Source: Arachidicoccus terrestris (lineage in GTDB: Bacteria; Bacteroidota; Bacteroidia; Chitinophagales; Chitinophagaceae). From it: a DNA stretch of 64,000 nt. Positions 14,839-36,524 of the stretch are shown here, in pieces. A program made the position numbers and the translations under genes. Within the stretch, counting starts at the first letter, position 1. Every line of letters begins with the position of its first letter. The notes under the pieces are model-generated. The model worked only from the letters and a program-made list of their open reading frames with translations. It was not told where the DNA came from and did not search any database. The stretch spans positions 2,852,001 to 2,916,000 of the forward strand of contig NZ_CP083387.1 of the NCBI RefSeq assembly GCF_020042345.1, in the 5' to 3' direction.

Positions 14839-14865
14839 CCCCCTATAACTTTGCTTTATACCCCC
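14839..14865 (+). promoter_or_regulatory. C-run direct-repeat element, copy 1 (GH27 unit)
   Basis: CCCCC at 14839-14843 and CCCCC at 14861-14865, 22 bp end to end, with the core ataactttgctttata between. It matches the three other copies in C-run spacing and in having CTTT or a similar TTT block in the core. It lies 358 bases from the GH27 ATG and no TAnnTTTG follows at the usual distance, so this is the weakest copy functionally. Probable operator of the locus HTCS, by inference. Confidence 0.55.
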
Positions 14866-15123
14866 AAGATAAAATAGTGCCATTGTCACAAAACGGAAGT
14901 AACAGAATCAGATGACAACAATTAATATAAAGGCTACATTTCTGCGATTAAAGGGAGTTTCTGATAGAAATTATCGATAAACAGGCTTTGCTCCTGCCAT
15001 TGTCCGGATAATCATTTCGATGGAAACACGTAAGCTAAGGCGAGAATGTGGGATATGCAAAATCTATGTAAATAAACGACTTTTTTGATTCATTATAAAT
15101 AATCGAATGGCGGTTAAATTAAT

Positions 15124-15142
15124 ATTTGTCAATTGTACAAAT
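15124..15142. promoter_or_regulatory. Palindrome near the GH27 start
   Basis: atttgt (15124-15129) and acaaat (15137-15142) flank a self-complementary CAATTG core. The left arm overlaps TAATATTTG, a near match to the -7 consensus with one extra base. It could be an operator or promoter for GH27, 82 bases from the ATG. Confidence 0.35.
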
Positions 15143-15223
15143 ATAGGTTATCTTCGGAGTCAGAGTTGATTAACAAAGTGGCACACTGAGCAGTATATTG
15201 GTTAACATAGGCAATCGTCAAAA

Positions 15224-16564
15224 ATGAGAAAATACTTTTTTTTTGCAGTAATAATACTGATGACAAGCTTGTCCCTACAGGCGCAGGAAAATTTTAAAAC
15301 ATGGGCAAAGACTCCGCCAATGGGCTGGAATAGCTGGGATGCCTACGGACCTACTGTAACTGAGCAGGAAGTAAAAGCCAACGCCGATTATATGGCAACG
15401 CATCTGCGTCCTTTTGGCTGGCAGTATATCGTTGTGGATATCAGGTGGTATGTATCCAATGACAAGGCCGGTGGTTATAACCAGACAGATCCGGTTTATA
15501 ATCTGGATAGATTCGGGAGGTACGTTCCGGCTGCAAACAGGTTCCCGTCTGCCGGGGAAGGTAAAGGTTTCAAGGCGCTGGCAGACTATATCCATGCCAA
15601 AGGCCTGAAGTTTGGTATTCATATCATGCGGGGTGTGCCTAAAGAAGCGGTGGCAAGAAAAATGCCCATCAAAGGCACGACGTTTACGGCTGATCAGATC
15701 TATAATGCCGAAGGGCAATGCAAATGGCTAAAAGATAATTATACGATTGACAGCACTGCGGCAGCGGCACAGGCATATTATAATTCGATCCTTGAACTTT
15801 ACGCTTCATGGGGTGTCGATTTTATCAAAGTAGATGACCTTTCCAGACCTTATCATCAGGCAGAAATAGAAATGATCAGAAAGGCTATCGATCATACCGG
15901 CAGGCCTATCGTGCTGAGCACTTCACCTGGCGAGACGCCGATCGTGAAAGCCACACATGTAATGAACCACGCCAATATGTGGCGGATGGTGGATGATGTC
16001 TGGGACACCTGGCCACATATAACGCATCTGATGAAGGTGGCGGAGCGGTGGTACCCGTATATTCGCCCCGGTACCTGGCCTGACTGTGACATGATCCCGC
16101 TGGGCCGGATTGCTATCCGTGGTGAAAGAGGAGCCGACCGGATGAGCCGGCTCACAAAAGAGGAGCAATATTCTTTAATGAGCTTCTTTTTGATTTTCAA
16201 ATCGCCTTTGATGTTCGGCGGCGACTTGCCGAGTCTGGATCCTTTCACAAGTTCTCTTTTAACCAATAAAGCGGCCCTGGAAATGCACCGCAATGGGACG
16301 CAAGTCAGACAGCTTTTTCAAAAAGACGGTAAACTCGCCGTCACTTCTGTCAACCGGAAAACCGGGGAGCATTATCTTGCCTTGTTCAATATATCAGGTA
16401 CGGCTTCCCCGTTAACTGTATCGGTGCCTCTGTCTGAACTGGGAATGACCTCTGCAATCCTGACGGATATATGGAGTGGAAAAAAAGAAGGGAAAGTCCA
16501 TGACAGTATTTCTGTTACACTGGCTCCGCATGCCTGTAAACTATTGAGCATAAAAGATAAATAA
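15224..16564 (+). CDS. GH27 glycoside hydrolase (alpha-galactosidase / beta-L-arabinopyranosidase type)
   Basis: A secreted or periplasmic enzyme of 446 residues with a signal peptide (1-20, ending LQAQ). The GH27 entry motif PPMGWNSWD is at about 31-39. The catalytic nucleophile is Asp204 in FIKVDD, where many members have KYDxC, and the likely acid/base is Asp258 in WRMVDDVW. The (beta/alpha)8 barrel runs to about 350, followed by a C-terminal beta domain. GH27 contains alpha-galactosidases, alpha-N-acetylgalactosaminidases and beta-L-arabinopyranosidases; the sequence alone does not choose. First gene of the PUL, 8 bases before the triple GH43 gene. Confidence 0.88.
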   Translation: MRKYFFFAVIILMTSLSLQAQENFKTWAKTPPMGWNSWDAYGPTVTEQEVKANADYMATHLRPFGWQYIVVDIRWYVSNDKAGGYNQTDPVYNLDRFGRYVPAANRFPSAGEGKGFKALADYIHAKGLKFGIHIMRGVPKEAVARKMPIKGTTFTADQIYNAEGQCKWLKDNYTIDSTAAAAQAYYNSILELYASWGVDFIKVDDLSRPYHQAEIEMIRKAIDHTGRPIVLSTSPGETPIVKATHVMNHANMWRMVDDVWDTWPHITHLMKVAERWYPYIRPGTWPDCDMIPLGRIAIRGERGADRMSRLTKEEQYSLMSFFLIFKSPLMFGGDLPSLDPFTSSLLTNKAALEMHRNGTQVRQLFQKDGKLAVTSVNRKTGEHYLALFNISGTASPLTVSVPLSELGMTSAILTDIWSGKKEGKVHDSISVTLAPHACKLLSIKDK

Positions 16565-16571
16565 GCGACTT

Positions 16572-19409
16572 ATGAGATGTATAAAGTGTTTTATTATTGT
16601 ACTGGTCTGTTTCGTGTCAGCCCGCCGTTCATTATGTGCACAGGTCACGCTGCCTGAGGATGGATACCTGTTTGCCTATTTTGAAGGCAGGGGGGCAGAT
16701 CAGGAAGCACTCCGTTTTGCCGTAAGTGAAGATGCGGTCCACTGGTCAGCCCTAAACGGGAATAAACCCATACTTGGCTCAGATACGATTGCAGCAACAG
16801 GTGGTATCCGGGATCCGCACCTTTTAAGGAGCGAGGATGGCAAACAATTTTACCTGGTAGCTACCGATATGCACACCGTAAAAAACGGATGGTCGCATAA
16901 TCCCGGAATCGTGATGATGCATTCGGATGATCTGTTACGCTGGAAACATACAGTAATTGATTTATCAAAGTTATACCCTAAGAAGTTTAGTGATATAAAA
17001 TGGGTTTGGGCACCTCAGACGATCTATGATCCATTGGTACACAAATACCTGGTTTATTTTACCGTAAGGTTCAATAGCAATGAAAAACTGGATTTCTATG
17101 GTGCCTACGCAAATGAAGATTTTACCGGATTCGAGTCTGAGCCCAGGCTTTTATTCAGCCCCCAGTATGGTGGCATAGACGCCGATATTATATATAAGGA
17201 TGGCCTGTATCATTTTTTCTTTAAAGGGAATACAAAAGATGAGTCAGGTAAGGAAATTAAAAACGGGATTAAACAGGCCACCAGTAAAAAGCTATGGGGA
17301 ACCTGGAAGGAGTTGCCTGGTTATCTGGATGCGTTTTCGGATAAAGATACCAGTGTAGAGGGCTCCAGTGTTTTTAAATTAAACCATTCTGATAAATACG
17401 TGTTGATGTATGATCTTTATGGTGTTGGCCGCTACGGTTACCAGCAATCGGGTGATCTGTTCAAATTTACTAAAACGCCTCAGTATTTTACCAAGAACTT
17501 TCACCCCAGGCATGGCAGTATTATAAGCATCAGCAGGCAAGAGGCCAGAAGGCTGCAGCGCAAATGGCAAGGCGTGCCGGCAGAACTGCTTCGTCCGGCT
17601 ACTGCCACCGACAGATATCATTTTTCTTCTAACGGGAATCCGATTGTTACCCATGAATTTACGGCTGACCCGGCGGCCCTGGTGGTCGGAGATACGCTTT
17701 GGCTGTTTACCGGCCGGGACGCGGCCGGCGGACAGAAAGGGTATCACATGCGAGACTGGCTGGCGTTTTCCACGACCGATATGAAACACTGGACCGAGTA
17801 TCCGACACCCATGAACTCAAAGACATTTTCCTGGGCAAAAAGCAAAGATGCGTGGGCCGGTCAGGTGATCGAAAGAAACGGGAAGTATTATTGGTATATC
17901 TGCACCAATTGGTCAGGCATTGGCGTTGCTGTGGCAGACCGCCCGGAGGGGCCTTATAAAGATGCCATCGGTAAGCCGCTGCTGACGAAAAAGGATTGCT
18001 TTGCTTCTTCCCATGGCTGGGCCTGTCTGGATCCGACTGTATTTATAGATGACGATGGACAGGCATGGCTTTTCTGGGGCAACGGCGAATGCTATTATGC
18101 TAAGTTGAAAGAAAATATGATTGAAATCGACGGGCCGGTCAAACAAGTGAAATTTGAGGGATTTGATTTCGAAGAGGCCGCATGGGTACATAAGTATAAT
18201 GGAAAATATTACCTGAGTTACTCCACAGGATTTCCGGAGAAAACCGCCTATGCGATGGCCGACCATATAGACGGGCCCTATACGTATAAAGGAATTATCA
18301 ATGAGATCGCCGGTAACTGTAACACCAATCATCAGGCTATCCTGCTCTTCAAAGGGCAATGGTATTTTATCTACCATAATGGTGCCATCCAGAGAGATGG
18401 TGGCAGCTTCAGCCGTTCTGTCTGTGCTGAATACCTGAATTATAATCCGGACGGGACTATTCAGAAGATCCAGATGACGACGGCAGGTGCGGATCCCGGT
18501 TACGTTCCGTTTGATAATAAGAACAACCCAGTGCTTGAGGGCTATTACGCAGATCCTGATATACTTTATTCCCATAAGACCGGGAAGTATTATCTCTATC
18601 CGACCAGTGACGGATTTGAGGGTTGGAGCGGCACTTATTTTAAAGCTTTTTCTTCTGATGATCTGAAACACTGGAAGGATGAAGGTGTGATTCTGGATCT
18701 GAACAAGGATGTTTCCTGGTCACACAGAAATGCCTGGGCACCCACCGTCATTGAAAAGAAGGCTGGTGATGATTTCAAATATTATTATTATTTTGTTGCT
18801 GGACAACAGATCGGCGTGGCCAAGTCCGATAACCCCACCGGGCCCTTTAAGGATAAGGGGCAACCGATCATTCCTAAAGACAAAGAACGGGGACAGGAGA
18901 TCGATCCTGATGTATTCCATGATCCTGTAAGTGGTAAAGATTACTTGTATTGGGGCAATGGTTATTTGAAGGTGGCTGAATTAAACGCAGATATGGAGTC
19001 ATTGAAAAAAAGGACGATCAGGACTATAACACCGGACAGGACTTATAGAGAAGGAGCTTATGTGTTTTACAGAAACCACAGGTACTATTTTATGTGGTCT
19101 GAGAATGACACAAGAAGTGAGGATTACAGAGTAAGATACGGTTATTCGAACAGTCCTGAGGGCCCTGTCACGATACCGGAACACAATTTAATTTTACAGA
19201 AAAGACCAGAGCAGGGAATATACGGAACGGGGCACAATTCAGTGATTCAGGTGCCGGGAACAGATCAGTGGTATATCGTATATCACCGCTTCCGCCGACC
19301 CAATGCGATCCACATGGGAAGTTCAGCCGGATATCATAGAGAGGTTTGCATAGACAAACTGGAATTTAATGATGATGGATTGATAAAACCAGTGATGCCA
19401 TCCCTGTAA
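16572..19409 (+). CDS. Three-module GH43 protein
   Basis: A 945-residue protein with a hydrophobic N-terminus (1-23) and three GH43 five-blade propellers in a row: about 30-320, 350-640 and 650-945. All three show an intact catalytic trio. Module 1 has Asp81 (IRDPH), Asp203/205 (GIDADI) and Glu263 (SVEGSS). Module 2 has Asp366 (TADPAA), Asp487 (CLDPTV) and Glu535 (FEEAAW). Module 3 has Asp661 (YADPDI), Asp778 (EIDPDV) and Glu827 (YREGAY). GH43 includes alpha-L-arabinofuranosidases, beta-xylosidases, arabinanases and exo-beta-1,3-galactanases. The modules differ strongly, so they are probably not a recent duplication and may cut different bonds. The first module resembles the GH43_34-like group, a low-certainty guess. 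Same unit as GH27. Confidence 0.85.
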   Translation: MRCIKCFIIVLVCFVSARRSLCAQVTLPEDGYLFAYFEGRGADQEALRFAVSEDAVHWSALNGNKPILGSDTIAATGGIRDPHLLRSEDGKQFYLVATDMHTVKNGWSHNPGIVMMHSDDLLRWKHTVIDLSKLYPKKFSDIKWVWAPQTIYDPLVHKYLVYFTVRFNSNEKLDFYGAYANEDFTGFESEPRLLFSPQYGGIDADIIYKDGLYHFFFKGNTKDESGKEIKNGIKQATSKKLWGTWKELPGYLDAFSDKDTSVEGSSVFKLNHSDKYVLMYDLYGVGRYGYQQSGDLFKFTKTPQYFTKNFHPRHGSIISISRQEARRLQRKWQGVPAELLRPATATDRYHFSSNGNPIVTHEFTADPAALVVGDTLWLFTGRDAAGGQKGYHMRDWLAFSTTDMKHWTEYPTPMNSKTFSWAKSKDAWAGQVIERNGKYYWYICTNWSGIGVAVADRPEGPYKDAIGKPLLTKKDCFASSHGWACLDPTVFIDDDGQAWLFWGNGECYYAKLKENMIEIDGPVKQVKFEGFDFEEAAWVHKYNGKYYLSYSTGFPEKTAYAMADHIDGPYTYKGIINEIAGNCNTNHQAILLFKGQWYFIYHNGAIQRDGGSFSRSVCAEYLNYNPDGTIQKIQMTTAGADPGYVPFDNKNNPVLEGYYADPDILYSHKTGKYYLYPTSDGFEGWSGTYFKAFSSDDLKHWKDEGVILDLNKDVSWSHRNAWAPTVIEKKAGDDFKYYYYFVAGQQIGVAKSDNPTGPFKDKGQPIIPKDKERGQEIDPDVFHDPVSGKDYLYWGNGYLKVAELNADMESLKKRTIRTITPDRTYREGAYVFYRNHRYYFMWSENDTRSEDYRVRYGYSNSPEGPVTIPEHNLILQKRPEQGIYGTGHNSVIQVPGTDQWYIVYHRFRRPNAIHMGSSAGYHREVCIDKLEFNDDGLIKPVMPSL

Positions 19410-19458: not shown

Positions 19459-22400
19459 ATGTTTAGGAGAATAACCTATATATTATCGGCATTCCTATTA
19501 TTGACCTGTCTGCCTCATAGCGGAAAGGCACAGGGAATTGATACGCTCTCGCTTGAAAATATCGGTGTGGAAGATGGGTTATCTAATAATGCGGTCACTT
19601 GTCTCATGCAAGATCACTATGGACTTATCTGGATGGGGACTTATGATGGACTAAACCGGTTTGACGGCGCTGATTTTGATATCTTTAGAAATAATTTAAG
19701 TGATACTTTCTCGATTATTAATAATCATGTCAGCGTTATAAAAGAGGGGATGCCTGATAATATCTGGGTAGGTACCCAAATGGGATTTGTCAGGTTCGAT
19801 TACAAAGATTTCAGGTTTCATGCCGCTTACTATTTGCCTCTGGGAGAGCAAAGACCTTTGAAGGTCCGTGCGCGCATCAAAGATATTCTTGCCGACACGT
19901 TGGGTAATGTGTTGGTGGCAACCGAGAATTATGGATTATTGTTTAAATCAGCTGCGGAGAATGTATTCAGGCAGATATTGCTTAAGGCAAAAACGGGGCT
20001 GAATGTTACAGCTATCTGTAATTTTCATGACGGAGCGTATTTGATTTATCTGAAAGATCAGGGTCTTTACAGTTTTGAGGCCCGTAACGGCGGGCTACAC
20101 AAAATCGCAGGGCGTATTCCGGCCGCCACCAGGCTTCTGTATGAGCCCGGCAGGCGTCAACTGCTTATCGGAACAGAAGAAGGCTTATACAGCTATGATT
20201 TTGGGACGGGCTCAGTAACTCCTTTTAGTTCAGAACTGGCACATTGCAATATCACTAATTTATTAAGGGATAAGCAGGGAACGCTTTGGGTATCTACTGA
20301 CGGGAATGGTGTTGCTTTTCTAAAAGGTACGCTGGGCGAAAGTACAGATATACGGTTCATTAAGGCGGGCCGGGAAAAGAACCAGTTGAAAAGTGCAGCG
20401 GTCTATAGTGTCTATGAGGATGATAATGGGCGAAAATGGATTGCAACGCTCAGAGGCGGTGTCAGTTTGTTGCATGCACAAAATTCATCGTTCAGGACAG
20501 TTAATAAAGATGATTTTAACCCCAATTCACTGGTCAGTAATTTTATACTTTCCTTCTGTGAGGATCAGTATAAAAACATATGGATCGGAACCGATGGTGG
20601 TGGAATCAGTTACTGGAATCCCAGGACAAACCGATTTAAGAACTATGTGCATCAACAGGGTGATCCCGGTTCTATCAGTGGTAATTACATTGTCAGTATT
20701 ATCCGGGATCATTTAAATAACATATGGATCGCTTCCTTTAATGGTGGAATAGACCGATTGGCGCCGGGAAGTGAACGCTTTACACATTACCGCTGTTATA
20801 ACGCATACAGGAATGCCTATGCAAAGAATTTCTGGAAATTGTTTGAAGACAGCCATCACAGAATCTGGCTTGGATCAACATTGGGTGACGTACTGTTTCA
20901 GTATGACCGGAAAAATGACCAGTTTGTCGTATATGATACCACGCTGATCAATATACATACAATATATGAAGACCGGCAGGGTAATATCTGGCTGGGAAAT
21001 TATGATCAGTTGATTAAACTCGATACGCTTCATAAGCATCATGCGTATATTCATGTTGGCTATCCGGTAAGAACAATCCTGGAAGATAAAAAAGATCGAT
21101 TATGGATCGGTACAGAAGGGGGAGGCTTAATGTTATATGATGCAAGATCAGAAAAGTTTAAACCCTTCCGAATGGAAGACGGGTTTTCCAGCAATTCCAT
21201 TTTAAACTTGTTGCTGGATGATAAGGGACGGATTTGGTGCAGCACTTATAACGGACTAAGTGTATTTGACCCGGATACTAAAATGGTATATAATTATCAT
21301 GCCCATGACGGATTGCAGAGTAATCAGTTTAGCTATAACGCAGCCCTCGCACTTAGCAATGGTAAATTCCTTTTTGGGGGTATTGCAGGTTTCAATGAAT
21401 TTTCACCGGCCCGCGTTACTAAGAAGGTAAAGTCGGTAAAGGTACTCGTGACAAGCTTTAAGGTGAACAATATTGCTGTTGAAAAGACAGGGCTACTTCC
21501 GAAGGGAGCTTCTCCTGTGGATTTTGAAACCATAACGACGCCATTTAAACAGGCGAATTTTGCTATTCGTTTTGCGGGTCTTGATTATGATGCACCGGGG
21601 AGCGTACAATACGGATATTTTCTGGAAGGCTGGGATAAGAGTTGGACAAGTATCGGCAATACCCATAATGTGACGTATTCCCGGCTGAATGAAGGGGACT
21701 ATATATTACACCTGGCAGTATTGCAACCCGACGGGAGGCCCCTGCTTTCAACTGAGAGGACGATTACCATTCATGTCTTACCACCCTGGTACCGGTCCTG
21801 GTGGGCATATTTAATTTATTTGACAGCTATCGGAGGCCTTATTTACGCCTATCAAAAATACAGGCAACGCAGGACGCGCCTTTTATATGAAATGAAACTG
21901 ACCCGTATGAATGCGAATGCAGAACGGGAACTCAACGAAAGAAAAATCACTTTTTTTACGAATATTTCACATGAGTTCCGAACGATGCTGACCCTGATCA
22001 TTAATCCTATTAAAGAATTAATGGACCATGCCGATGAGACCAGCCAGCCTGACACCATAAGAATGGCATATAAAAATTCAAGGCGAATGTTGGGGCTCAT
22101 AGGACAGCTACTGCTTTTTAGAAAGGCTGATAGAGCTGAAAGCCAGTTACACATCAGTAAACTGAATTTGGGAACATTATGCAGGGAAGTATTTGATAGT
22201 TTTGCTTATCAGGCAAAATCGCAAAACATAGATTACCGGTTCGAAATGGCCCCACCGCCGGTTCCGGCATTGGAGGATGATCACACGAAAGTCGTGGATG
22301 CAACGGAGAATGGGGATAACCATATATCAGGCCTATGGGTTTATGGAGACTTGGAAAAGATGGAGATCTTATTATTTAACTTGATCTCTAACGCCTTTAA

Positions 22401-23697
22401 ATATACCGGTAATGATGGGCGGATTCTGCTCAGGCTGGAAGAAAAGGAAGCGCATGTTTTGATTCAATTGATCGATTCCGGTAAAGGTATTCCGGAGCAG
22501 GAGAAGGAAAAGGTTTTTCAGAAGTTCTATCAAAGACATGAAACCAGCGAGCGGGCGAAAGCAGGCTTTGGTATCGGGTTATTCCTGGTTAAGGAATTTG
22601 TGACGTTGCATCATGGTACGATTGAATTGGAAAGCGAGATCGGGAAGGGCACAGCTTTTACAATTAGGATCCCAAAGGGAAAGGAACATTTTGCGGGCGA
22701 AGAAATTTCCGAAATCAGTGATCCGGATGCCGGATTGGCAGAAGAAATAATAGACAGCGCGGGTGTAAGAGAAAACGAGCCTATAAGTACAGAACCGGGA
22801 TCTAACCGGGCCAGGACTACCAAAGGCGGTCTTGCCGGGGCGGTGATGCAGATAAGCAATGGTGGTGAGGATGTTTCTGGAGGGCTGTTTACCGATAAAA
22901 GAACCGTTCTTATCGCAGATGATAATTACGAAATCAGAACTTTTGTCAAAAGGCTTCTTGCTGATTATCAGGTTATTGAAGCAGAAAACGGACGCCTTGC
23001 ACTAGACTTGATCGAGGATATGCTGCCCGATCTGGTTATTCTGGACCTGGCTATGCCAGGCTACTCAGGTGATGAAATATGCAGCAAGATCAAAGCCGAT
23101 GAAAAGCTTAGTCATATACCCGTTATTATCCTGACGGCCGAGGCTTCGGCAGAAATCAAGCTCCGCTGTGTGGAAGCCGGGGCGGATGATTATATCACCA
23201 AACCGTTTGAGAAGGAGCTGCTGTTAGCCAGGGTCAGCAATCTGTTAAAGGCAAAGAGCAGTCTGCAAAAGTTTTTTTATAATGAGATTACACTCCAGGA
23301 CCATCAGCATAAACTCACTGAAGAAGACAAATCTTTCCTGAATGCCTGTATAAGTGTCATTGAAGAGCATCTGGATGATGATCAGTTTAAAGTACAGATT
23401 TTAGTGGACAAAATGTGTATGAGCCATTCGAGCCTATATAAGAAAATTAACGGAACAACCGGATATTCGGTAGCCGGGTTTGTCCGTTTTGTCCGACTGA
23501 GAAAGGCTGCAGAACTGTTCGTGAATACCCAGAACAATGTCAATGAGGTCGCTTTTATTGTCGGTTTTAATGATGTAAAATATTTCAGGGCGCAATTTCA
23601 GCGGTTGTTTAATATGACACCATCCGCCTATATTAAAAAGTTTAGAAAGTCTTTTGCCGGTACTTATAACAGGAGGCAGGGTAATGACATAAAATAA
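19459..23697 (+). CDS. Hybrid two-component system regulator (HTCS) of the PUL
   Basis: A single 1412-residue sensor-regulator spanning the inner membrane. The order is signal peptide (1-24), a periplasmic two-propeller sensor of Reg_prop repeats (about 30-700, many D-x-x-G-x-I/L-W-x-G), a Y_Y_Y beta-sandwich (about 705-775), a membrane helix (about 781-801), HisKA with His838, HATPase (N- and G-boxes in LISNAFKYT, DSGKGIP and GFGIGLFL), a receiver with Asp1196 and intact acidic pair, Thr and Lys, then an AraC-type HTH (about 1290-1390). The H-box reads SHEFRTMLTL: Met843 replaces the usual Pro. HTCS proteins bind an oligosaccharide of the target glycan and switch on the PUL. It lies 49 bases after the GH43 gene. 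Confidence 0.93.
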   Translation: MFRRITYILSAFLLLTCLPHSGKAQGIDTLSLENIGVEDGLSNNAVTCLMQDHYGLIWMGTYDGLNRFDGADFDIFRNNLSDTFSIINNHVSVIKEGMPDNIWVGTQMGFVRFDYKDFRFHAAYYLPLGEQRPLKVRARIKDILADTLGNVLVATENYGLLFKSAAENVFRQILLKAKTGLNVTAICNFHDGAYLIYLKDQGLYSFEARNGGLHKIAGRIPAATRLLYEPGRRQLLIGTEEGLYSYDFGTGSVTPFSSELAHCNITNLLRDKQGTLWVSTDGNGVAFLKGTLGESTDIRFIKAGREKNQLKSAAVYSVYEDDNGRKWIATLRGGVSLLHAQNSSFRTVNKDDFNPNSLVSNFILSFCEDQYKNIWIGTDGGGISYWNPRTNRFKNYVHQQGDPGSISGNYIVSIIRDHLNNIWIASFNGGIDRLAPGSERFTHYRCYNAYRNAYAKNFWKLFEDSHHRIWLGSTLGDVLFQYDRKNDQFVVYDTTLINIHTIYEDRQGNIWLGNYDQLIKLDTLHKHHAYIHVGYPVRTILEDKKDRLWIGTEGGGLMLYDARSEKFKPFRMEDGFSSNSILNLLLDDKGRIWCSTYNGLSVFDPDTKMVYNYHAHDGLQSNQFSYNAALALSNGKFLFGGIAGFNEFSPARVTKKVKSVKVLVTSFKVNNIAVEKTGLLPKGASPVDFETITTPFKQANFAIRFAGLDYDAPGSVQYGYFLEGWDKSWTSIGNTHNVTYSRLNEGDYILHLAVLQPDGRPLLSTERTITIHVLPPWYRSWWAYLIYLTAIGGLIYAYQKYRQRRTRLLYEMKLTRMNANAERELNERKITFFTNISHEFRTMLTLIINPIKELMDHADETSQPDTIRMAYKNSRRMLGLIGQLLLFRKADRAESQLHISKLNLGTLCREVFDSFAYQAKSQNIDYRFEMAPPPVPALEDDHTKVVDATENGDNHISGLWVYGDLEKMEILLFNLISNAFKYTGNDGRILLRLEEKEAHVLIQLIDSGKGIPEQEKEKVFQKFYQRHETSERAKAGFGIGLFLVKEFVTLHHGTIELESEIGKGTAFTIRIPKGKEHFAGEEISEISDPDAGLAEEIIDSAGVRENEPISTEPGSNRARTTKGGLAGAVMQISNGGEDVSGGLFTDKRTVLIADDNYEIRTFVKRLLADYQVIEAENGRLALDLIEDMLPDLVILDLAMPGYSGDEICSKIKADEKLSHIPVIILTAEASAEIKLRCVEAGADDYITKPFEKELLLARVSNLLKAKSSLQKFFYNEITLQDHQHKLTEEDKSFLNACISVIEEHLDDDQFKVQILVDKMCMSHSSLYKKINGTTGYSVAGFVRFVRLRKAAELFVNTQNNVNEVAFIVGFNDVKYFRAQFQRLFNMTPSAYIKKFRKSFAGTYNRRQGNDIK

Positions 23698-23891: not shown

Positions 23892-23911
23892 ATCAAAGGA
23901 CAGCGCCGGGC

Positions 23912-25834: not shown

Positions 25835-25843
25835 AAAGCCATT

Positions 25844-27252: not shown

Positions 27253-30200
27253 ATGAAAAGGGTGATTCGTCTTTCAACAGAACCAATCGGGTGTATCCAG
27301 CCTTTAATAAAGCTGCTGGTATCTTTTTGCCTTTGCCTGGTCATACACCAAACTGCCTTTGCCCAGCAGCCTGACCAGATACATGGACGTGTCGTAGATG
27401 GTAAAGGTATTCCTCTCAGCAATACCAGTATTGCAATTGCCGGCCAGAACGGAGGAGCTATATCGGATAGCGCAGGGCAGTTTTCAATCAATGCTATTAA
27501 GGGAGATACACTGTTATTTTCTCATGTTGGCTACAGTGATCTTAAGCTAGTGGTCACAACGCAATCCTTCATGAATGTGACATTGATGGAAAGCCAGATC
27601 AATACTTTAAATGATGTGGTCGTTGTTGGCTATGGCACCTCGACTAAAAAGAACCTGACCGGTTCGGTATCTGTTGTAAAAGGGAGTGATATTGTGAAAA
27701 GCCCTCAGCCAGATATTTCCAACTCCCTGGCCGGTCGCTTTTCCGGGCTGATCGCCAGCAACAGGAGTGGCGAACCCGGATATGATGGTTCTTCTATCAG
27801 AATCAGGGGTTTGGCAACAACAGGAAATAATGATGTGCTTGTGGTGGTAGACGGAGTGCCCGGCGCCATAGGAGGATTTTCCAGATTGAACCCCGATGAC
27901 ATAGCAAGTGTAACGGTATTGAAGGATGCATCTGCTGCTGTTTATGGTAGCAGGGCGGCAAACGGCGTTATATTGGTCACCACCAAACAGGGCGCCACTG
28001 GCAAGCCCCTGATATCCTATAGTTATAATCAGGGTTTTTCTTCTCCTACCAGGCTGCCCAAAATGGCCGATGCTGCAACCTACGCAGCCATACTCAATGA
28101 GATCGATTACTATAATAACCCTGAGGGCGGTATGAACCAACATTATACAGCTGAAGAAGTTCAGAAGTTCAAAGATGGCTCAGATGCGATCAATTATCCC
28201 AATACAGACTGGCAGGAAGCGACATTGAAGAATTTTGCCTTGCAGAACCATCAGGCACTCAGTGTGAGGGGAGGCAGTGATAAAGTCAAGTATTATCTAT
28301 CTCTGGGAACGGTAAGCCAGAATAGTCTTTATAAAGACGGAGCGACTAAATATAAGCAATACAACTTCAGATCTAATGTAGGCGCCCAGATAACAAAGGA
28401 TCTCAATGTGAAGCTTTCTTTGTCGGGAAGGCAAGAGGACCGTCACTATCCCATTGCTTCTGCCGGCGATATTTTCAGATCAATTTACAGGGCCTATCCG
28501 ATTGTTATTGACCGCTATCCGAACGGGCTTCCCTCTACGGGCATTGAAAATAATAATCCGGTCGTAATGGCCACGGATGCAAGCGGGTGGAACAGAAATC
28601 CGACATCTACCTTTAACGGCATTCTGAGTGCGACTTATAATATTCCTTTTGTTAACGGGTTATCCATCGATGGATTTTATTCCGTGGATAAATCCTTCAA
28701 TTTCACCAAGACATTTAATCAGCCTTATGCATTGTATACTTACGATGGCGACAATGATACTTATGATAAGACCATTGCCGGCGGCTCCGCGGGGGCTGCC
28801 ACTTTAAATGAATCCCAGGTGAACACTTCTTTGATAACGCAGAATATTAAACTCAACTACAAAAACGGGTGGGGTAAACATCATCTGGATGCTTTTGTCG
28901 GTTATGAACAAAGCGAGAACAGTTCAGAAACCTTCGGTGCCTCCAGGATTAATTACCCGACTGTTTTAACGCCTGAGCTCTCCCAGGGAGGGGCTGCCGC
29001 GACAGACAAGGATAATTATGGAAGCAGTTTTGATTTTACACGCAGAAGTATGATCAGTAGACTAGCTTACAACTATATGGAGAAGTATCTACTGGAAGGT
29101 CAGCTCAGAATAGATGGTTCATCTAATTTTCCGAGCGGCCATCAATATGGCTACTTCCCCTCTGTCGCTGCAGGGTGGAGGGTTTCGGAAGAACCTTGGT
29201 TCAAACAATCGGTGAGCTGGATCAATGATTTGAAATTCAGGGCATCTTATGGCTCTCTGGGCAACGATAATGTTGCGCAGTTCCAGTATTATAACAACTA
29301 TTCCTTTAGTAATCATTATGTCATTGGCAACGGAACCGTTCATCCGGGTATCGATCTGACAAAATTGGCGAACCCGAATATCACCTGGGAGGTGGCCAAG
29401 AAAATGGATATCGGATTGAACGCTATTGTGGCCAATGATTTCAACGTTGAACTGATCTATTTTCAGCAGAAAAGGTCAGATATCCTGGCCACCAGAAATG
29501 CGTCCATTCCTTCTGTATCGGGTATTGTGAATCCCTATACTGGAGACCCGCTGGTGCCGGATGAGAATATCGGAAAAGTCAATAATGAAGGGTTTGAGGC
29601 GACAATAGGGTATACGCATAGTGGTGCTTTTCATTTTAATGTCTCAGCAAACATGACCTATGCGAAAAGTAAAGTTGTTTTCATAGACGAAGCCGCCGGA
29701 ACTTTGGATTATCAGAGCCAGACGGGGCACCCTTTGAATGCTTATTTGCTATATAAATCAATTGGCATCTACCGGACTGCTGAGGACCTGGAAAAATATC
29801 CTCATGTTTCCGGCGCCGGATTAGGAGATCTGATCTTTGAAGACTATAACGGTGACGGTTCAATAACAGCGGATGATCAGGTACGGACAAAATATGGAAA
29901 TATTCCACAAATTGTATACGGTTTGGTGTTTAGTTCCGGATATAAGCAATTTGATTTCTCTTTTGTCATAGCAGGTCAGGCGGAAGTCAGCCAATATGTG
30001 CTGCCTGAATCAGGACAGGTGGGCAATTTTTACAGTAGCTGGGCCGATAACCGGTGGAGCCCTTCTAATCCCAGCGGTACCTATCCAAGGGTAGATACAA
30101 GAGCCTCATCTGCGATTAGCGGTGGACTTTATAATAGTACCTTTTGGCTGAATGACGCTTCTTTTGCGCGGCTTAAGAATGTCGAACTGGGCTATACTTT

Positions 30201-30375
30201 CCCCAAAAGGATATTAAATGCACTAAGGATGTCTCAGGTGCGCGTATACGCCAGCGCATCTAATTTGTTCACGATCACAAAAGTGAAGGACTATGACCCG
30301 GAAGGTGACAGCGGAAGCGGTCAGTTCTATCCACAGCAAAGGATCATTAACCTGGGTATTAATGTCAATTTTTAA
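27253..30375 (+). CDS. SusC/RagA-type TonB-linked outer membrane transporter, first copy
   Basis: A 1040-residue TonB-dependent transporter for oligosaccharide import, working with the SusD lipoprotein as a lid. The signal peptide ends FAQQ near residue 38. A carboxypeptidase-D-like regulatory domain (IHGRVVDGKGIPL, about 42-120) precedes the plug (VVVVGYGTSTKKNLTGSV from about 122), and a 22-strand barrel follows, ending in a C-terminal Phe (NLGINVNF). It heads a unit with SusD, GH30 and GH2. Confidence 0.95.
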   Translation: MKRVIRLSTEPIGCIQPLIKLLVSFCLCLVIHQTAFAQQPDQIHGRVVDGKGIPLSNTSIAIAGQNGGAISDSAGQFSINAIKGDTLLFSHVGYSDLKLVVTTQSFMNVTLMESQINTLNDVVVVGYGTSTKKNLTGSVSVVKGSDIVKSPQPDISNSLAGRFSGLIASNRSGEPGYDGSSIRIRGLATTGNNDVLVVVDGVPGAIGGFSRLNPDDIASVTVLKDASAAVYGSRAANGVILVTTKQGATGKPLISYSYNQGFSSPTRLPKMADAATYAAILNEIDYYNNPEGGMNQHYTAEEVQKFKDGSDAINYPNTDWQEATLKNFALQNHQALSVRGGSDKVKYYLSLGTVSQNSLYKDGATKYKQYNFRSNVGAQITKDLNVKLSLSGRQEDRHYPIASAGDIFRSIYRAYPIVIDRYPNGLPSTGIENNNPVVMATDASGWNRNPTSTFNGILSATYNIPFVNGLSIDGFYSVDKSFNFTKTFNQPYALYTYDGDNDTYDKTIAGGSAGAATLNESQVNTSLITQNIKLNYKNGWGKHHLDAFVGYEQSENSSETFGASRINYPTVLTPELSQGGAAATDKDNYGSSFDFTRRSMISRLAYNYMEKYLLEGQLRIDGSSNFPSGHQYGYFPSVAAGWRVSEEPWFKQSVSWINDLKFRASYGSLGNDNVAQFQYYNNYSFSNHYVIGNGTVHPGIDLTKLANPNITWEVAKKMDIGLNAIVANDFNVELIYFQQKRSDILATRNASIPSVSGIVNPYTGDPLVPDENIGKVNNEGFEATIGYTHSGAFHFNVSANMTYAKSKVVFIDEAAGTLDYQSQTGHPLNAYLLYKSIGIYRTAEDLEKYPHVSGAGLGDLIFEDYNGDGSITADDQVRTKYGNIPQIVYGLVFSSGYKQFDFSFVIAGQAEVSQYVLPESGQVGNFYSSWADNRWSPSNPSGTYPRVDTRASSAISGGLYNSTFWLNDASFARLKNVELGYTFPKRILNALRMSQVRVYASASNLFTITKVKDYDPEGDSGSGQFYPQQRIINLGINVNF

Positions 30376-30392
30376 TAGCAAAATATTATACA

Positions 30393-32093
30393 ATGAAAAC
30401 GATAAAATTGAATAACTTAAAATATATGTGGATGCTGACGACAGCATTGGTTTGTCTGACCGGTGTATCCTGTAGCCATAACTATCTTGAGATTACACCA
30501 ACCGATCGTGTGTCCGATGCGGCTATTCTTGCTGACTCTGTATTATTTGAAGATTATGTCATCAACCGTTACATGGGAATCCAGCAGACCAATAAAGAGG
30601 CGGAAGGAACACCTCCCGGATTTGGCCGGGGGTTTGAATATGCGCTGTGGTCATCCCTTACGGATGAATCAATGTACACCAATGATGATAATACTTGGCT
30701 TATTCAAAGAGGCCAGATCGCTCCGGAGAATACCGGTATTGCCGGCACGTTTTGGGGAAGGAGTTACAGAGGCATCCGTGACATCAATTATGCATTAAAT
30801 CATATTAATGAGGTGCCTATGAGTGAAGGACTTAAAAACCGGTTGACAGGAGAACTGAAATTCCAGCGTGCCTTCAGATATTTTGATCTCATCCGTAATT
30901 ATGGAAAGGTTGTTTTGGTCGGGGACAGAGTATATGATCTGACTGATGATTTTTCATCTACCGACTCCCTCTATGTACGTTCGTCTATAAAAGATGGTAT
31001 TGCTTATGTGCGTACACAACTGGATGAGGCGGCAGGTTTACTGCCCGTGGATCACAGTAGCAGCAATTGGGCACTGGGAAGGGCCACAAAAGGGGCAGCT
31101 CTCGCGCTTAAATCCCGCTTACTGCTGTATGCAGCCAGTCCGCTCTATAATGCAGGCTCCTGGTCAGATGCGGCAAAAGCGGCTAAGGACGTGATGGAAC
31201 TGCAACGGTACAGTCTCTATCAGGGTGGGTACGGAAAGATCTTTCTGACTCCGGACAATAACCCCGAAATTATCTTTGAGCGGTTATATGCGACAGGAGC
31301 TGTGCATGTAGCGCTGGAGATTGCCAATGGTCCCAATGGCTACGATGGATGGGGCGGTAATACGCCGCTTCAAAATCTGGTAGACGCTTATGAAATGGCG
31401 AATGGAAAGGCCATTACGGCAGTCGGATCGGGATATGATCCTGCTCACCCTTACGAGAATAGAGATCCCAGATTTTATGCCACAATTCTGTATAATGGAG
31501 CTCCTTACAGAGGAGATACGGTATGGACATATACACCGGGCGGGAAGGATAGTAAAGACGGGCCTTCGAATTGGAATACTTCCAAAACAGGTTATTATCT
31601 GAAAAAGTTTATGAATGATAACCTGCCAATTGTAAACCCCTGGGGAATAGCCGGAACACAACCCTGGATCTATTTCAGGTATGCGGAAATTCTGCTGAAC
31701 TATGCAGAGGCACAGAATGAGGCGGCGGGGCCAGACAATTCTGTTTACAGTGCCATCAACCAAGTAAGGGAAAGAGCAGGGATGCCCGATTTGCCTGAAG
31801 GGCTGAGCCAAACCGAAATGCGCACAGCCATACGGTATGAACGTCAGGTAGAGCTTGCATTTGAGGAACACCGTTACTACGATGTCAGACGTTGGAAAAT
31901 TGCAGAGGTGACAGAAAACGAACCTGCCTACGGTATCAGTGTGACTAAAGAGAACGGTATTTTTAAGTATACCAGGATCACAGCCTTATCCGGTAAGCAT
32001 TTTGAAACCAAACAATACTGGCTGCCGATTCCAAGGGCAGAGATTTTGGCTTCAGACAATAAACTGGAACAAAATACCGGGTATGGCAATTAA
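30393..32093 (+). CDS. SusD/RagB-type glycan-binding lipoprotein, first copy
   Basis: A 566-residue surface lipoprotein with lipobox TGVS-C27. The N-terminal helical TPR region (YVINRYMGIQ ... FQRAFRYFDLIRNYG) and the SusD C-terminal block (YFRYAEILLNYAEAQNEA ... QVRERAGMP ... VELAFEEHRYYDVRRWKIA) are clear. It binds glycan and caps SusC. It follows susC by 17 bases. Confidence 0.94.
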   Translation: MKTIKLNNLKYMWMLTTALVCLTGVSCSHNYLEITPTDRVSDAAILADSVLFEDYVINRYMGIQQTNKEAEGTPPGFGRGFEYALWSSLTDESMYTNDDNTWLIQRGQIAPENTGIAGTFWGRSYRGIRDINYALNHINEVPMSEGLKNRLTGELKFQRAFRYFDLIRNYGKVVLVGDRVYDLTDDFSSTDSLYVRSSIKDGIAYVRTQLDEAAGLLPVDHSSSNWALGRATKGAALALKSRLLLYAASPLYNAGSWSDAAKAAKDVMELQRYSLYQGGYGKIFLTPDNNPEIIFERLYATGAVHVALEIANGPNGYDGWGGNTPLQNLVDAYEMANGKAITAVGSGYDPAHPYENRDPRFYATILYNGAPYRGDTVWTYTPGGKDSKDGPSNWNTSKTGYYLKKFMNDNLPIVNPWGIAGTQPWIYFRYAEILLNYAEAQNEAAGPDNSVYSAINQVRERAGMPDLPEGLSQTEMRTAIRYERQVELAFEEHRYYDVRRWKIAEVTENEPAYGISVTKENGIFKYTRITALSGKHFETKQYWLPIPRAEILASDNKLEQNTGYGN

Positions 32094-32176
32094 AAAAGGA
32101 TCAGACGGGCGTTTAATGGGCCATCCTATCCTAATTTTAAGCAACGGGTTATTTTTTAGAACTGAAACTGTTATAG

Positions 32177-33775
32177 ATGAAACAATACCTCAGAGTCTTA
32201 ATACAATGCTTCCTGTCGCTGTCCACTTTTGTTGTTACCCAAACGAGTGCCGCTTGGGGAGATAAAGCAGAACCTGCGGTATCAGATTTTAATAGGGATA
32301 CCCTGGTAATCAGGGTAGAGCCGGACAGCACCTTTCAGGTAATAGATAATTTTGGCGCGAGCGATGCCTGGACCTGTCAGTATGTGGGCTGCTGGGACGA
32401 TAAGGTTAAGAATAAAATAGCAGACCTGCTGTTCAGTATGGGTAAGAATGCCTCCGGGGATCCCAAGGGTATCGGGTTGTCGGCGTGGCGTTTTAATATC
32501 GGCGCCGGCAGCGGTCAGCAAGGTGAAAAAAGTGGCATTATGGATGTCTGGCGCCGCGCCGAAACTTTCCTTCAGGAAAATGGAATGTATGATTTTAACG
32601 GTGCTGCGGGACAAACCTGGTTTTTACGGGCCGCAAAACGCAGAGGTGTGTCCGAGTTTATCGGCTTCTGCAATAGTGCACCGTACATGATGACAAAAAA
32701 TGGCCTGACATTTAGCACCGGCGGCCAGACAAATCTGGCACCTGGTCAATACGGCGCATTTTCCGATTACTTAATAAAGGTGGTTGACGGCATCAAGAAA
32801 AAAGCCGGTGTGGATCTGGATTATATAAGCCCGGTCAATGAACCTCAATGGGACTGGAGTGACAGCAGTCAGGAAGGAAGTCCTTACAGCAATAAAGAAA
32901 TTGCTGCTTTGGCCAAAGTATTGGATGCCCGGTTAACCAAAGCCGGTTTGAAGACGAAGATTTCCCTGGCAGAGGCGGGCCAGCTCAATTATCTGTATGA
33001 AGGAGCGGGTAAGCCTCAGAGAGGCAGGCAGCTTCAATCATTTTTTTCTGGGAATGACAGTACTTCTTTACTGGGATTGGCTCATGTCGATCATTGTATT
33101 ACAGCCCACAGTTATTTTACCACTTCTCCTTTTGGTGAGGCTATCAGGCAAAGGCAAAAGCTGGCCGATTCATTAAAAGTGCTTCAGTCCCATTCCGGTT
33201 TGAAAGACCTGCGATACTGGATGAGCGAGTACTGCATTCTGGGAGATAATTTTGGGGAGATAAATGGCGCTCACCGTGATTTGGGCATGGCGCCGGCTCT
33301 ATATGTGGCTAAAGCCATTCATATGGATTTGACTTACGCAGAAGCCAGTGCCTGGCAATGGTGGTTAGGCATCTCTGCCTATGATTATAAAGACGGTCTT
33401 ATTTATGTAGACAAAACGCAGCCGACAGGCAAGTTTTATGAAAGTAAGATGCTGTGGGCACTCGGTAATTACAGCCGGTTTGTTCGCCCGGGTTTTATAC
33501 GGATCAACAGTGAGGTTAGCGGGAGAGCAGTAACTGATTCAAGTATTCTGGTAAGCAGTTTTAAAGACCGTGCAAGTGCAAAACTAGCACTGGTAATCGT
33601 GAATCTGGGAAATACACCTCGGGTAATTTCAGTTGGAAACGACCGTCATCTTAGGATCAGGAATAAGTATGTGACTTCTGTGAATTACAATCTGAAGCGT
33701 TTTAAGATAAAAAGGGGGAGAGACATTCAATTGCCATCAAGATCAGTAATAACGTTGACAGGTGTATATAGATAG
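32177..33775 (+). CDS. GH30 glycoside hydrolase (endo-beta-1,6-galactanase-like?)
   Basis: A 532-residue secreted enzyme (signal peptide about 1-25). It has the GH30 layout: FQVIDNFGASDAW near residue 53, an (alpha/beta)8 barrel and a C-terminal beta-sandwich. The acid/base is Glu222 in SPVNEPQWDW and the nucleophile Glu351 in YWMSEYC. The WxxGSGxxG-type glycine patch (NIGAGSGQQG) and NEPQWDW remind me of the GH30_5 endo-beta-1,6-galactanase group, which acts on type II arabinogalactan side chains; the subfamily is an inference. The gap to SusD is 83 bases without a terminator, so cotranscription is likely. Confidence 0.83.
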   Translation: MKQYLRVLIQCFLSLSTFVVTQTSAAWGDKAEPAVSDFNRDTLVIRVEPDSTFQVIDNFGASDAWTCQYVGCWDDKVKNKIADLLFSMGKNASGDPKGIGLSAWRFNIGAGSGQQGEKSGIMDVWRRAETFLQENGMYDFNGAAGQTWFLRAAKRRGVSEFIGFCNSAPYMMTKNGLTFSTGGQTNLAPGQYGAFSDYLIKVVDGIKKKAGVDLDYISPVNEPQWDWSDSSQEGSPYSNKEIAALAKVLDARLTKAGLKTKISLAEAGQLNYLYEGAGKPQRGRQLQSFFSGNDSTSLLGLAHVDHCITAHSYFTTSPFGEAIRQRQKLADSLKVLQSHSGLKDLRYWMSEYCILGDNFGEINGAHRDLGMAPALYVAKAIHMDLTYAEASAWQWWLGISAYDYKDGLIYVDKTQPTGKFYESKMLWALGNYSRFVRPGFIRINSEVSGRAVTDSSILVSSFKDRASAKLALVIVNLGNTPRVISVGNDRHLRIRNKYVTSVNYNLKRFKIKRGRDIQLPSRSVITLTGVYR

Positions 33776-33799
33776 AACTGCGCTAATAGCTATTTTTTC

Positions 33800-36316
33800 A
33801 TGATAAAGAACTTTGAAATGGAACAGGGAAAAAAGATCCGCAAATATGACCATCGGGCAAATTGGGCTTTGCCGGCTGTTTTGCTGAAAGTATGCTGTTT
33901 ATGCTGTTGGTACTTCGGAAGTACAATATCAGTTCTTTCCCAACTTCCGGCAGATGCCCGATTATTTAATGATGGGTGGGCATTCCACCTGGGGGATCTG
34001 GATCCATCATCCCTGTCAGAAAGTAGCAACGATACTTTGTGGCAGGCTATTACCCTTCCACAGGACTGGAGTATCAAAGGGCCTTTTAACCACCGATGGG
34101 CTAGCGCCACAGGTTATCTCCCGGGCGGTATCGGTTGGTATAGAAAGATTTTTAAGATCGGGAAAACTGAAACCGGCCTGCGACAGTATATTTATTTTGA
34201 AGGGGTGTATAAAAACAGTGCAGTTTGGCTAAACGGCCATCTTCTGGGCCAAAGACCTAATGGGTTTGTATCTTTTTATTATGACATGACGCCTTATCTG
34301 AAAGAAAATGGCTTGAATGAACTACTCGTAAAAGCAGATCATACTGATTTTGCAGATTCGAGATGGTATACTGGGTCAGGTATATATCGCAATGTCTATA
34401 AAGTGACGGCTCCGCCTGTACATATCCCGATCTGGGGCGTGAGTGTCGGGACGATGAAAGTTAAGGAGCGGACGGCCGAACTCGGAATACATATTGCCAT
34501 TGAAAAACCCGTAAATGCTAAAGACAGGATCCGTATCGAAAACGTGCTGCTGGACGCTGACGGAAATAAAGTGTCGGCTATCCGTCAGGAGTGCCTGCTG
34601 GATACCTTGGATAACAGATCTGTTGACACCAGGATGGCGCTTGCGATGGCCAGGACATGGTCTACCGAAGATCCGTATTTATACCGTTTGGTTACCACAC
34701 TGAAATTAAATGGGAAAAAACTAGGTCAGTACACGACGCCAGTAGGTATCCGTCAGGTAAGATTTACCGCGGATAGTGGACTTTTTCTGAACGGACATGC
34801 GTTAAAATTAAAGGGAGTCTGTCTACACGATGATGCCGGTAGTTTCGGGACGGCGGTACCTATGGCTGTCTGGAAGGAACGCCTGCGGTTACTGAAAGCA
34901 GCTGGCTGCAATGCGGTCAGAATGACACACAACCCTCATGCGCCGGGCATATATGATCTATGCGATCAGATGGGTTTTCTGGTTATCGATGAAGCTTTTG
35001 ATGAATGGGAGCTGGGAAAACACAAATGGATCACAGGCTGGAATAATGGTGTACCTGGCACCGACGGTTATCATTCGGATTTTAAAAAGTGGTGGAAAAC
35101 GGACCTTACTGATATGATCCGAAGAGACCGGAACCACCCTTCCATTATTATGTGGAGTATCGGTAATGAAATTGATTATCCGAATGACCCTTATTCAGAT
35201 CCGGTACTTAATGAAGGTCATTATCCCCAGATTTATGGATCAGGTTTTATGCCGGAGCATCCTGCTGCCGCTGCCTTGGGCAGCATTGCGGAGGCGTTGG
35301 CCGGTGTTGTTAAAATTCTTGATCCGTCAAGACCCGTAACCGCAGGCCTTGCCGCTGTGATGATGGCAGATAAAGCAGGCTATACAGATGTGCTGGACGT
35401 AGCCGGATATAATTACCAGGAGTATCGATATGAAGCCGATCACAAAAAGTACCCCCGCAGGGTCATGTATGGGAGCGAGAACGGCCACGGGTACCGTGCG
35501 TGGAAAGCCGTAACGGAGCATCCGTTTATAATAGGCCAGTTTCTGTGGACCGGTGTAGATTATTTAGGCGAAGCCAGTAAATGGCCCAGTCATGGTAACG
35601 AAGCGGGCCTGATTGATCTGGCTGGATTTAAAAAGCCTGAGTACTATTTCCGGCAATCTATCTGGTCGGATCGGCCAATGGTATATCTGGGCACATCAAA
35701 ATCATTCCGGCGGCTGGATCTCAAAAACGGCCGTCACGGGATGGCCAGACCGGTTTGGAATTATTTGTTGGGGGACACGGTGAATGTATACTGTTATACC
35801 AACTGTAAGCAGGCTACGCTTATGTTGAACGGCGTTGCCATAGGCACGCAGTCACAAAATGATTCTACACATGTAATCGTGTGGCGAATACCTTTTCAAC
35901 CTGGAAAGCTGACAGTTACAGCAAGGGACCAGCGTGGGATCACCGTACAAGACAATATACAGACGGTCGGTAATCCCGATCATATTGAAACAACCCGACG
36001 TGCACTAGATAAATGCGCAGATGAAAATCAGATCTGTGTGGTAGATATACAGGTCGCTGATAAGGACGGGGCTACTGTCATGTCGGACAGCTCGGTCATA
36101 CAGGTCGACGTTGCCGGAGGTGGTAGACTGATAGGCTTGGAAAACGGGAATGTCAGGGATGTTCAGCCTTATGGAGGCAATCGAAGAAAGGCCTATCATG
36201 GCCGTTTAAAAGCATATATTAAGGTGATACAAACCGGGAAAAGGATAAAGGTATCGGTTAATCACCCTAAGGTGGATACAATAAAACTGCAAAGCAGTGT
36301 GTTTGAAATTATGTAG
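33800..36316 (+). CDS. GH2 beta-galactosidase-type hydrolase
   Basis: An 838-residue enzyme with sugar-binding jelly-roll (about 50-205), an immunoglobulin-like domain (about 210-320), a TIM barrel (about 325-620) and a C-terminal part. The acid/base is Glu457 in MWSIGNEIDYP; the nucleophile is Glu560 in MYGSENGHG. The hydrophobic segment at 23-47 suggests export, although the N-terminus is long and charged; a second ATG at 33818 is an alternative start. GH2 includes beta-galactosidases, beta-glucuronidases and alpha-L-arabinopyranosidases; which one is open. Last gene of the third PUL unit, followed by a strong terminator. Confidence 0.87.
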   Translation: MIKNFEMEQGKKIRKYDHRANWALPAVLLKVCCLCCWYFGSTISVLSQLPADARLFNDGWAFHLGDLDPSSLSESSNDTLWQAITLPQDWSIKGPFNHRWASATGYLPGGIGWYRKIFKIGKTETGLRQYIYFEGVYKNSAVWLNGHLLGQRPNGFVSFYYDMTPYLKENGLNELLVKADHTDFADSRWYTGSGIYRNVYKVTAPPVHIPIWGVSVGTMKVKERTAELGIHIAIEKPVNAKDRIRIENVLLDADGNKVSAIRQECLLDTLDNRSVDTRMALAMARTWSTEDPYLYRLVTTLKLNGKKLGQYTTPVGIRQVRFTADSGLFLNGHALKLKGVCLHDDAGSFGTAVPMAVWKERLRLLKAAGCNAVRMTHNPHAPGIYDLCDQMGFLVIDEAFDEWELGKHKWITGWNNGVPGTDGYHSDFKKWWKTDLTDMIRRDRNHPSIIMWSIGNEIDYPNDPYSDPVLNEGHYPQIYGSGFMPEHPAAAALGSIAEALAGVVKILDPSRPVTAGLAAVMMADKAGYTDVLDVAGYNYQEYRYEADHKKYPRRVMYGSENGHGYRAWKAVTEHPFIIGQFLWTGVDYLGEASKWPSHGNEAGLIDLAGFKKPEYYFRQSIWSDRPMVYLGTSKSFRRLDLKNGRHGMARPVWNYLLGDTVNVYCYTNCKQATLMLNGVAIGTQSQNDSTHVIVWRIPFQPGKLTVTARDQRGITVQDNIQTVGNPDHIETTRRALDKCADENQICVVDIQVADKDGATVMSDSSVIQVDVAGGGRLIGLENGNVRDVQPYGGNRRKAYHGRLKAYIKVIQTGKRIKVSVNHPKVDTIKLQSSVFEIM

Positions 36317-36385
36317 GATTTTTATGAAAAATAACTCTTAGAGGTCGATGAATTATTCTATCGATCGGGGCGTTATTTAGCTGAG

Positions 36386-36425
36386 CGCTGCTTTAAAATC
36401 TATCATTTTAAAGCAGCGTTTTAAA
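36386..36425 (+). terminator. Strong terminator after GH2
   Basis: cgctgctttaaaat (36386-36399) and its exact reverse complement (36405-36418) form a perfect 14-bp stem with a 5-base loop (ctatc), followed by TTTT. It ends the SusC-SusD-GH30-GH2 unit. Confidence 0.88.
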
Positions 36426-36499
36426 CAGCTGCTCATTTTATTACAATTGTTAATATGACGATAAATCTGTCAGATGAATGCGCATTTTAGTTAAAAACT

Positions 36500-36524
36500 C
36501 CCCTATTTATTACCATTTCACCCC
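36500..36524 (+). promoter_or_regulatory. C-run direct-repeat element, copy 4 (second SusC unit)
   Basis: CCCC (36500-36503) and CCCC (36521-36524), 21 bp end to end, core tatttattaccatttca. Both runs are followed by T. The second run lies 4 bases from the -33 TTG, the usual place for an activator that touches RNA polymerase. Confidence 0.68.

Follow-up and report, generated by a model that had tools for sequence, protein, structure and literature searches.

Predicted HTCS operators before three of the four units of a putative arabinogalactan utilization locus in Arachidicoccus terrestris

The window, i.e. the whole stretch of 64,000 nucleotides analysed here (positions 2,852,001 to 2,916,000 of NZ_CP083387.1), is part of the 4.9-Mb genome of Arachidicoccus terrestris and contains a PUL. 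Based on the gaps between genes, the PUL splits into four units, namely GH27-GH43-HTCS (unit 1; HTCS, hybrid two-component sensor), GH35-GH43 (unit 2), SusC1-SusD1-GH30-GH2 (unit 3), and SusC2-SusD2 (unit 4). The genes and the predicted regulatory features are as follows (window coordinates, except for the last entry).

14839..14865, + strand: copy 1, a pair of C-runs not regarded as an operator
15122..15144, + strand: palindrome ATATTTGTCAATTGTACAAATAT ahead of the GH27-GH43-HTCS genes (unit 1), probably the operator of a regulator distinct from the HTCS
15149..15156, + strand: possible −7 element TATCTTCG of unit 1
15224..19409, + strand: unit 1 enzymes, GH27 (15224-16564) and a two-domain GH43 (16572-19409)
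19459..23697, + strand: HTCS with a propeller sensor, Y_Y_Y, HisKA, HATPase, receiver, and AraC-type HTH
23404..23637, + strand: HTH_18 AraC-type DNA-binding domain of the HTCS (residues 1316-1393)
23861..23893, + strand: copy 2, predicted HTCS operator before GH35-GH43
23912..23919, + strand: −7-like element TATTTTTG of unit 2
23978..26866, + strand: unit 2, GH35 and GH43
27116..27153, + strand: copy 3, predicted HTCS operator before SusC1-SusD1-GH30-GH2
27170..27176, + strand: −7-like element TAATTTG of unit 3
27253..36316, + strand: unit 3, SusC1, SusD1, GH30, and GH2
36493..36530, + strand: copy 4, predicted HTCS operator before SusC2-SusD2
36548..36555, + strand: −7-like element TAATTTTG of unit 4
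36780..41440, + strand: unit 4, SusC2 and SusD2
C1:4510981-4512024, − strand: stray predicted exo-β-1,3-galactanase gene (GH43, 348 aa; locus L227), 1.6 Mb from the PUL

The enzymes of unit 1 were assigned by domain and structure-relative searches. The HTCS and its DNA-binding domain were assigned by Pfam, and 4a2l and 12aw are PDB relatives of the HTCS, the gene for which resides inside the same PUL as copies 2-4. The nearest solved relative of GH27 is the β-L-arabinopyranosidase 4nx0 (E = 6.6e-133), and those of the two GH43 genes of the PUL are a set of two-domain xylosidases/arabinofuranosidases and an endo-arabinase. The solved relatives of the unit 3 GH2 are β-galactosidases and other GH2 enzymes, and the unit 3 GH30 matches best 3clw, an unnamed exported protein, and weakly the endo-β-1,6-galactanase 24td (E = 5e-8). 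These nearest relatives suggest that the target glycan of the PUL is type II arabinogalactan. Elsewhere, the window encodes a protein of 1144 aa (2246-5680, − strand) that contains DUF285 repeats together with a Por secretion tail.

The first-pass annotation had reported four pairs of C-runs, and all four are present on the + strand (14839-14865, 23866-23891, 27122-27148, and 36500-36524; copies 1-4), with end-to-end spacings of 22, 21, 22, and 21 bp, respectively. The −7-like elements begin 20, 21, and 23 nt past copies 2, 3, and 4, respectively, also as described. The assertion that one copy precedes each unit holds in terms of position, as there is a pair in the gap ahead of each of the four units, but copy 1 is unconserved and has a background score (see below). 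The pattern CCCCN15-19CCCC occurs nine times in the window, which is not above the chance level (10.5 expected from shuffles), and its matches in the own genome number 120 + 89 with overlaps counted; among the first 30 genome matches listed, 25 lie inside ORFs of at least 60 aa. Raw pattern counting, being at the chance level in the window and yielding approximately 200 matches in the genome, was therefore rejected as uninformative. Dinucleotide shuffling of each gap produced such a pair in 49 (copy 1), 41 (copy 2), 428 (copy 3), and 0 (copy 4) of 20000 shuffles, which makes every one of the four pairs unusual for the gap in which it lies. The separation of copies 2-4 from copy 1 is thus based on conservation and profile scores, not on raw counts.

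The half-site of copies 2-4 approximates AWTTnnCCCC(C)T and is repeated directly at 20-22 bp, corresponding to two helical turns. Aligned blocks conserved in congeners span the repeat through the −7-like element before GH35 in A. rhizosphaerae (G116) and A. ginsenosidivorans (G244) and before SusC1 and SusC2 in A. rhizosphaerae, and include TATTTTTG in the former case and TAATTTG and TAATTTTG, respectively, in the latter cases. In this phylum, the −7 element usually reads TAnnTTTG and is accompanied by a TTTG-like −33 element. The gene order in the PUL regions of the congeners is reshuffled, yet 10 relaxed pairs were found before PUL genes in four of the five congeners, where they precede SusC2 and SusC1 (G116 and G018), GH35 (G116 and G244), further SusC genes (G116 and G244), and GH43 (G187). 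The remaining congener (G235) possesses the HTCS, and no relaxed pair was found in its PUL region. The HTCS and SusC genes of one A. ginsenosidivorans locus (L066, 10001-23147) are broken into several frames, possibly due to assembly errors.

Two profile models were used for scanning. Model R1 was built from 10 congener pairs, each read in the orientation of the PUL gene that follows it, and contains no window sequence; one reverse-strand pair of G116, two overlapping pairs of G244 before a reverse-strand gene, and the four window copies were left out. Model R2 was built from 25 of the 30 forward pairs found in the HTCS loci of relatives (see below) and contains no Arachidicoccus sequence, as L035 (a congener), the near-duplicates L070, L078, and L139, and one of two overlapping L092 pairs were left out. 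Because the training sites were picked by C-run pairs, both models lean towards C-runs. The MAFFT alignments A2 and A3 were poorly phased in the C-runs, and A3 was left unused.

When the best 150 of 3206 candidates in the own genome were scored with R1, eight matches were obtained (E ≤ 10), with copies 2, 4, and 3 on top (22.7, 22.3, and 20.3 bits, respectively), followed by matches of 14.3 (between convergent genes), 13.9 (before the distal GH43 gene), 12.9, 12.0, and 11.2 bits. Scoring of the best 150 of 2093 candidates with R2 gave six matches (E ≤ 5), of which copies 2 and 3 rank first and second (16.4 and 15.5 bits); two matches inside ORFs (13.1 and 12.9 bits), copy 4 (12.5 bits, rank 5), and a match of 12.2 bits follow. 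In the window scans with filters off, copies 2-4 lead both the 21 matches of R1 and the 22 matches of R2, the order with R2 being copy 2, copy 3, and copy 4 (14.0 bits). Because R2 also gives a 19.1-bit match between convergent genes in the congener G018, single matches are no proof. A motif scan had been named as the decisive check, and the outcome of the scans in the own genome and in relatives favours the operator reading for copies 2-4.

In 110 HTCS loci (337 gaps, 100 kb), C4 pairs spaced at 20-22 bp are found 30 times on the gene strand versus three times on the other strand, with a peak of 16 at 21 bp. Of 105 distinct loci encoding related HTCSs, 41 contain a C4 pair at 20-22 bp on the coding strand within 1.5 kb past the DNA-binding domain (five on the reverse strand), as against 2 of 27 control loci of another HTCS (one on the reverse strand) in the same 1.5-kb scope. 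The former number includes one congener locus and excludes L061 and L066, one duplicate having been removed from an earlier count of 42 in 106, and the control comprises 27 of 28 loci, one having no domain match. When only gaps were counted, the pair was found in 6 of 28 related loci versus none of 28 control loci. The loci with the pair include those of Chitinophagaceae, Pedobacter (3 of 6), and Mucilaginibacter (1 of 2). The strict pair is absent from 64 of the 105 related loci in the 1.5 kb examined, including all 11 of Flavobacterium and all 7 of Sphingobacterium. Among the 28 loci of the family, the identity of the DNA-binding domain shows no trend (52.8% with the pair versus 53.6% without it), and the gaps of the second HTCS locus of the own genome contain no such pair.

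The repeat in the relatives approximates AWTTnnCCCCT with a spacing of 20-22 bp. A T directly follows the first C-run in 36 and the second C-run in 28 of the 41 sites, and non-C positions of the repeat are conserved as well (13 pairs of spacing 21 and the congener alignments). In 12 of the 41 sites, TA.TTTG begins 21-23 nt past the second C-run (mean of 0.07 and maximum of 2 in shuffles). Variant arrangements were also observed. Three C-runs are present in series with 21-bp steps before the SusC gene at 14154 of L092, as if there were three tandem half-sites, and in L081, L091, and L139 a G-run occurs within a few bases past the second C-run, so that the operator could also fold as a hairpin. 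In A. rhizosphaerae, a 26.1-bit site precedes the SusC gene belonging to a second HTCS, which is 37-39% identical (L270; G116:C50:1-17000), and two HTCSs of one cell may therefore share operator letters, with possible cross-talk.

The fifth R1 match among the best 150 of 3206 candidates (13.9 bits, E = 0.38) is located approximately 106 nt before the stray GH43 gene, and TATTTTG is found 22 nt past its second run. This site was not among the matches of the R2 genome scan (E ≤ 5, best 150 of 2093). The product of the gene shows no similarity to the unit 2 GH43; its nearest solved relatives are 6eug, named a β-glucanase (E = 1e-90), and the galactan 1,3-β-galactosidases 7bys (1.3e-55) and 5flw (2.5e-36), of which 5flw is an exo-β-1,3-galactanase. 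Orthologs are present in all six genomes of the genus. The A. rhizosphaerae ortholog, which is located on a contig other than that of the PUL, is preceded by a fuller site (17.6 bits with R1 and 15.1 bits with R2). No site was found directly before the A. ginsenosidivorans ortholog, and in that genome a 15.5-bit site precedes a SusC2-SusD2-galactanase group (69, 74, and 74% identity) approximately 2 Mb from the PUL. In the other three genomes, the ortholog is located within 8-17 kb of the HTCS gene, and there is no R1 match directly before it. The distal exo-β-1,3-galactanase gene thus probably joins the predicted regulon of the PUL HTCS, and the first-pass expectation of sites confined to this PUL has to be abandoned in view of the weaker site 1.6 Mb away.

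Copies 2, 3, and 4 are very probably operators of the HTCS encoded in the PUL (19459-23697), as predicted from their sequences and their nearly fixed distance to a −7-like element. The direct repeats, their conservation, their association with this type of HTCS, and the fixed −7 distance are directly seen in the sequences; binding, phosphorylation, activation, and the inducer are what we infer. According to the proposed mechanism, an arabinogalactan fragment would bind the periplasmic propeller of the HTCS, and the kinase would phosphorylate the receiver fused to it. Two protomers would then contact one half-site each through their AraC-type domains, on a common face of the DNA, and the promoter-proximal protomer, placed where a −33 element would be, would recruit RNA polymerase. 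Units 2-4 would be induced together, probably along with the exo-β-1,3-galactanase gene 1.6 Mb away, whereas unit 1, which encodes the HTCS, would stay outside the regulon and would probably be controlled via its own palindrome.

The earlier proposal that the HTCS at 19459 occupies the repeat as a dimer, through its AraC-type domain, is well supported for copies 2-4, but does not extend to copy 1. It is highly unlikely that all four copies are HTCS sites and that the HTCS unit is autoregulated. Shuffling of the gap yields such a pair just 49 times in 20000, and copy 1, correct in strand and spacing, might have arisen recently in this species. However, copy 1 is missing from the 21 R1 matches in the window with filters off and ranks 16th of the 22 R2 matches with 4.3 bits, and is thus at background with two independent models. 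No counterpart was found in the aligned G244 gap, and neither of the two congeners with a GH27 gene (G116 and G244) has a pair in the gap before it. Copy 1 had been described as lacking a clear promoter, and indeed there is no −7-like element within 60 nt, while 359 nt separate the copy end from the start codon of GH27. Unlike copies 2-4, copy 1 was rejected as an HTCS site based on these background scores, non-conservation, and the missing −7-like element, and is probably a chance pair.

A reading in which the repeat serves another regulator, such as a free AraC-type protein, an ECF sigma factor, or a general promoter element, is unlikely as well. The assignment to the HTCS draws on sequence comparison, and many related HTCS loci have no strict pair; yet the pair tracks this HTCS type (41 of 105 versus 2 of 27 loci for another), travels with the target genes where loci have been rearranged, and is seldom found in the own genome beyond the regulon, and tandem sites spaced at two turns are the pattern published for HTCSs (PMC3878776). 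The C-runs would be extremely unlikely to be products of chance or structural elements without a regulator (C-rich single-strand folds or RNA leader elements). Although the raw pair count in the window is at the chance level, the spacing peak at 20-22 bp and the strand bias (30 forward versus 3 reverse in 110 loci), the conserved non-C positions, and the −7 element at a fixed distance, ahead of where transcription presumably starts, argue against this explanation.

Control of unit 1 appears to involve a different element. The palindrome ATATTTGTCAATTGTACAAATAT overlaps the likely promoter of GH27-GH43-HTCS and is found as a single copy in the own genome even with up to three mismatches allowed, while two exact copies are present ahead of GH27 in each of G116 and G244. 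The possible −7 element TATCTTCG, assigned by inference, is located just past the palindrome and is conserved in both A. rhizosphaerae and A. ginsenosidivorans beside one palindrome copy. The chance expectation of the palindrome arms in the window is 0.08. With one mismatch allowed, the palindrome was found at eight places in 6 of 238 family genomes, and no common neighbour gene was found for the five places outside the genus. The palindrome arms presumably resemble operators of GntR-type arabinose repressors. Judging from the sequence, the palindrome is likely to be read by some regulator distinct from the HTCS. As noted in the literature (PMC6874557), HTCS genes usually show constitutive expression at a low level, in agreement with the missing HTCS site before unit 1.

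There is about an even chance that one operator-promoter module, consisting of the C-run direct repeat with a nearly fixed −7 distance and usually no evident −33 element, serves a whole HTCS clade in Chitinophagaceae and Sphingobacteriaceae, moves with its target genes, and can be used to assign stray enzyme genes to a PUL, as with the exo-β-1,3-galactanase gene, unit 1 with the sensor gene being under a second regulator. With unit 1 under such a regulator, side-chain and backbone signals would be read separately. The repeat provides a concrete candidate operator for HTCSs outside Bacteroides and predicts a regulon that includes a gene far from the PUL. Through the distal site, a predicted arabinogalactan backbone enzyme becomes linked to a cluster whose two GH43 genes resemble other enzymes, and the fixed −7 distance suggests how HTCSs activate.

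No HTCS motif outside Bacteroides was found in the open-licence literature. The first-pass annotation knew of no published description of this exact motif, but the tandem HTCS architecture is already in print: Ravcheev et al. (2013; PMC3878776) presented 16 HTCS motifs of B. thetaiotaomicron, including that of the arabinogalactan HTCS BT0267, all of which are direct repeats with an average distance of 21 bp, proposed a dimer bound to one face of the DNA, and also described regulon members located far away. Since all of these elements have been published, the kind of site described here is already known. Copies 2-4 can be likened to the B. thetaiotaomicron sites (PMC3878776) in layout, as direct repeats spaced at 21, 22, and 21 bp compared with the average of 21 bp, and the 12-bp sites of HTCS_Rgu-1 with a 9-bp spacer fit the same layout. 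Unlike the B. thetaiotaomicron HTCSs (PMC3878776), the HTCS of the window is from another bacterial family and another HTCS clade.

Palindromic operators before arabinose-related genes, sometimes in tandem, have been described for AraR of Bacteroides, a member of the NrtR family (PMC4666351). The unit 1 palindrome is similar in being palindromic and, in G116 and G244, present in two copies, but differs in its letters from the two published oligonucleotides (PMC4666351). Receiver-HTH fragments of BT4124 and BT4663 bind susC promoters in gel shifts, and the bound promoters carry previously predicted sites of other HTCSs (PMC11253607). The receiver of the window HTCS carries the SHIP motif, which is linked to inhibition in that source (PMC11253607), whereas the second HTCS of its own genome has SIP, with no H.
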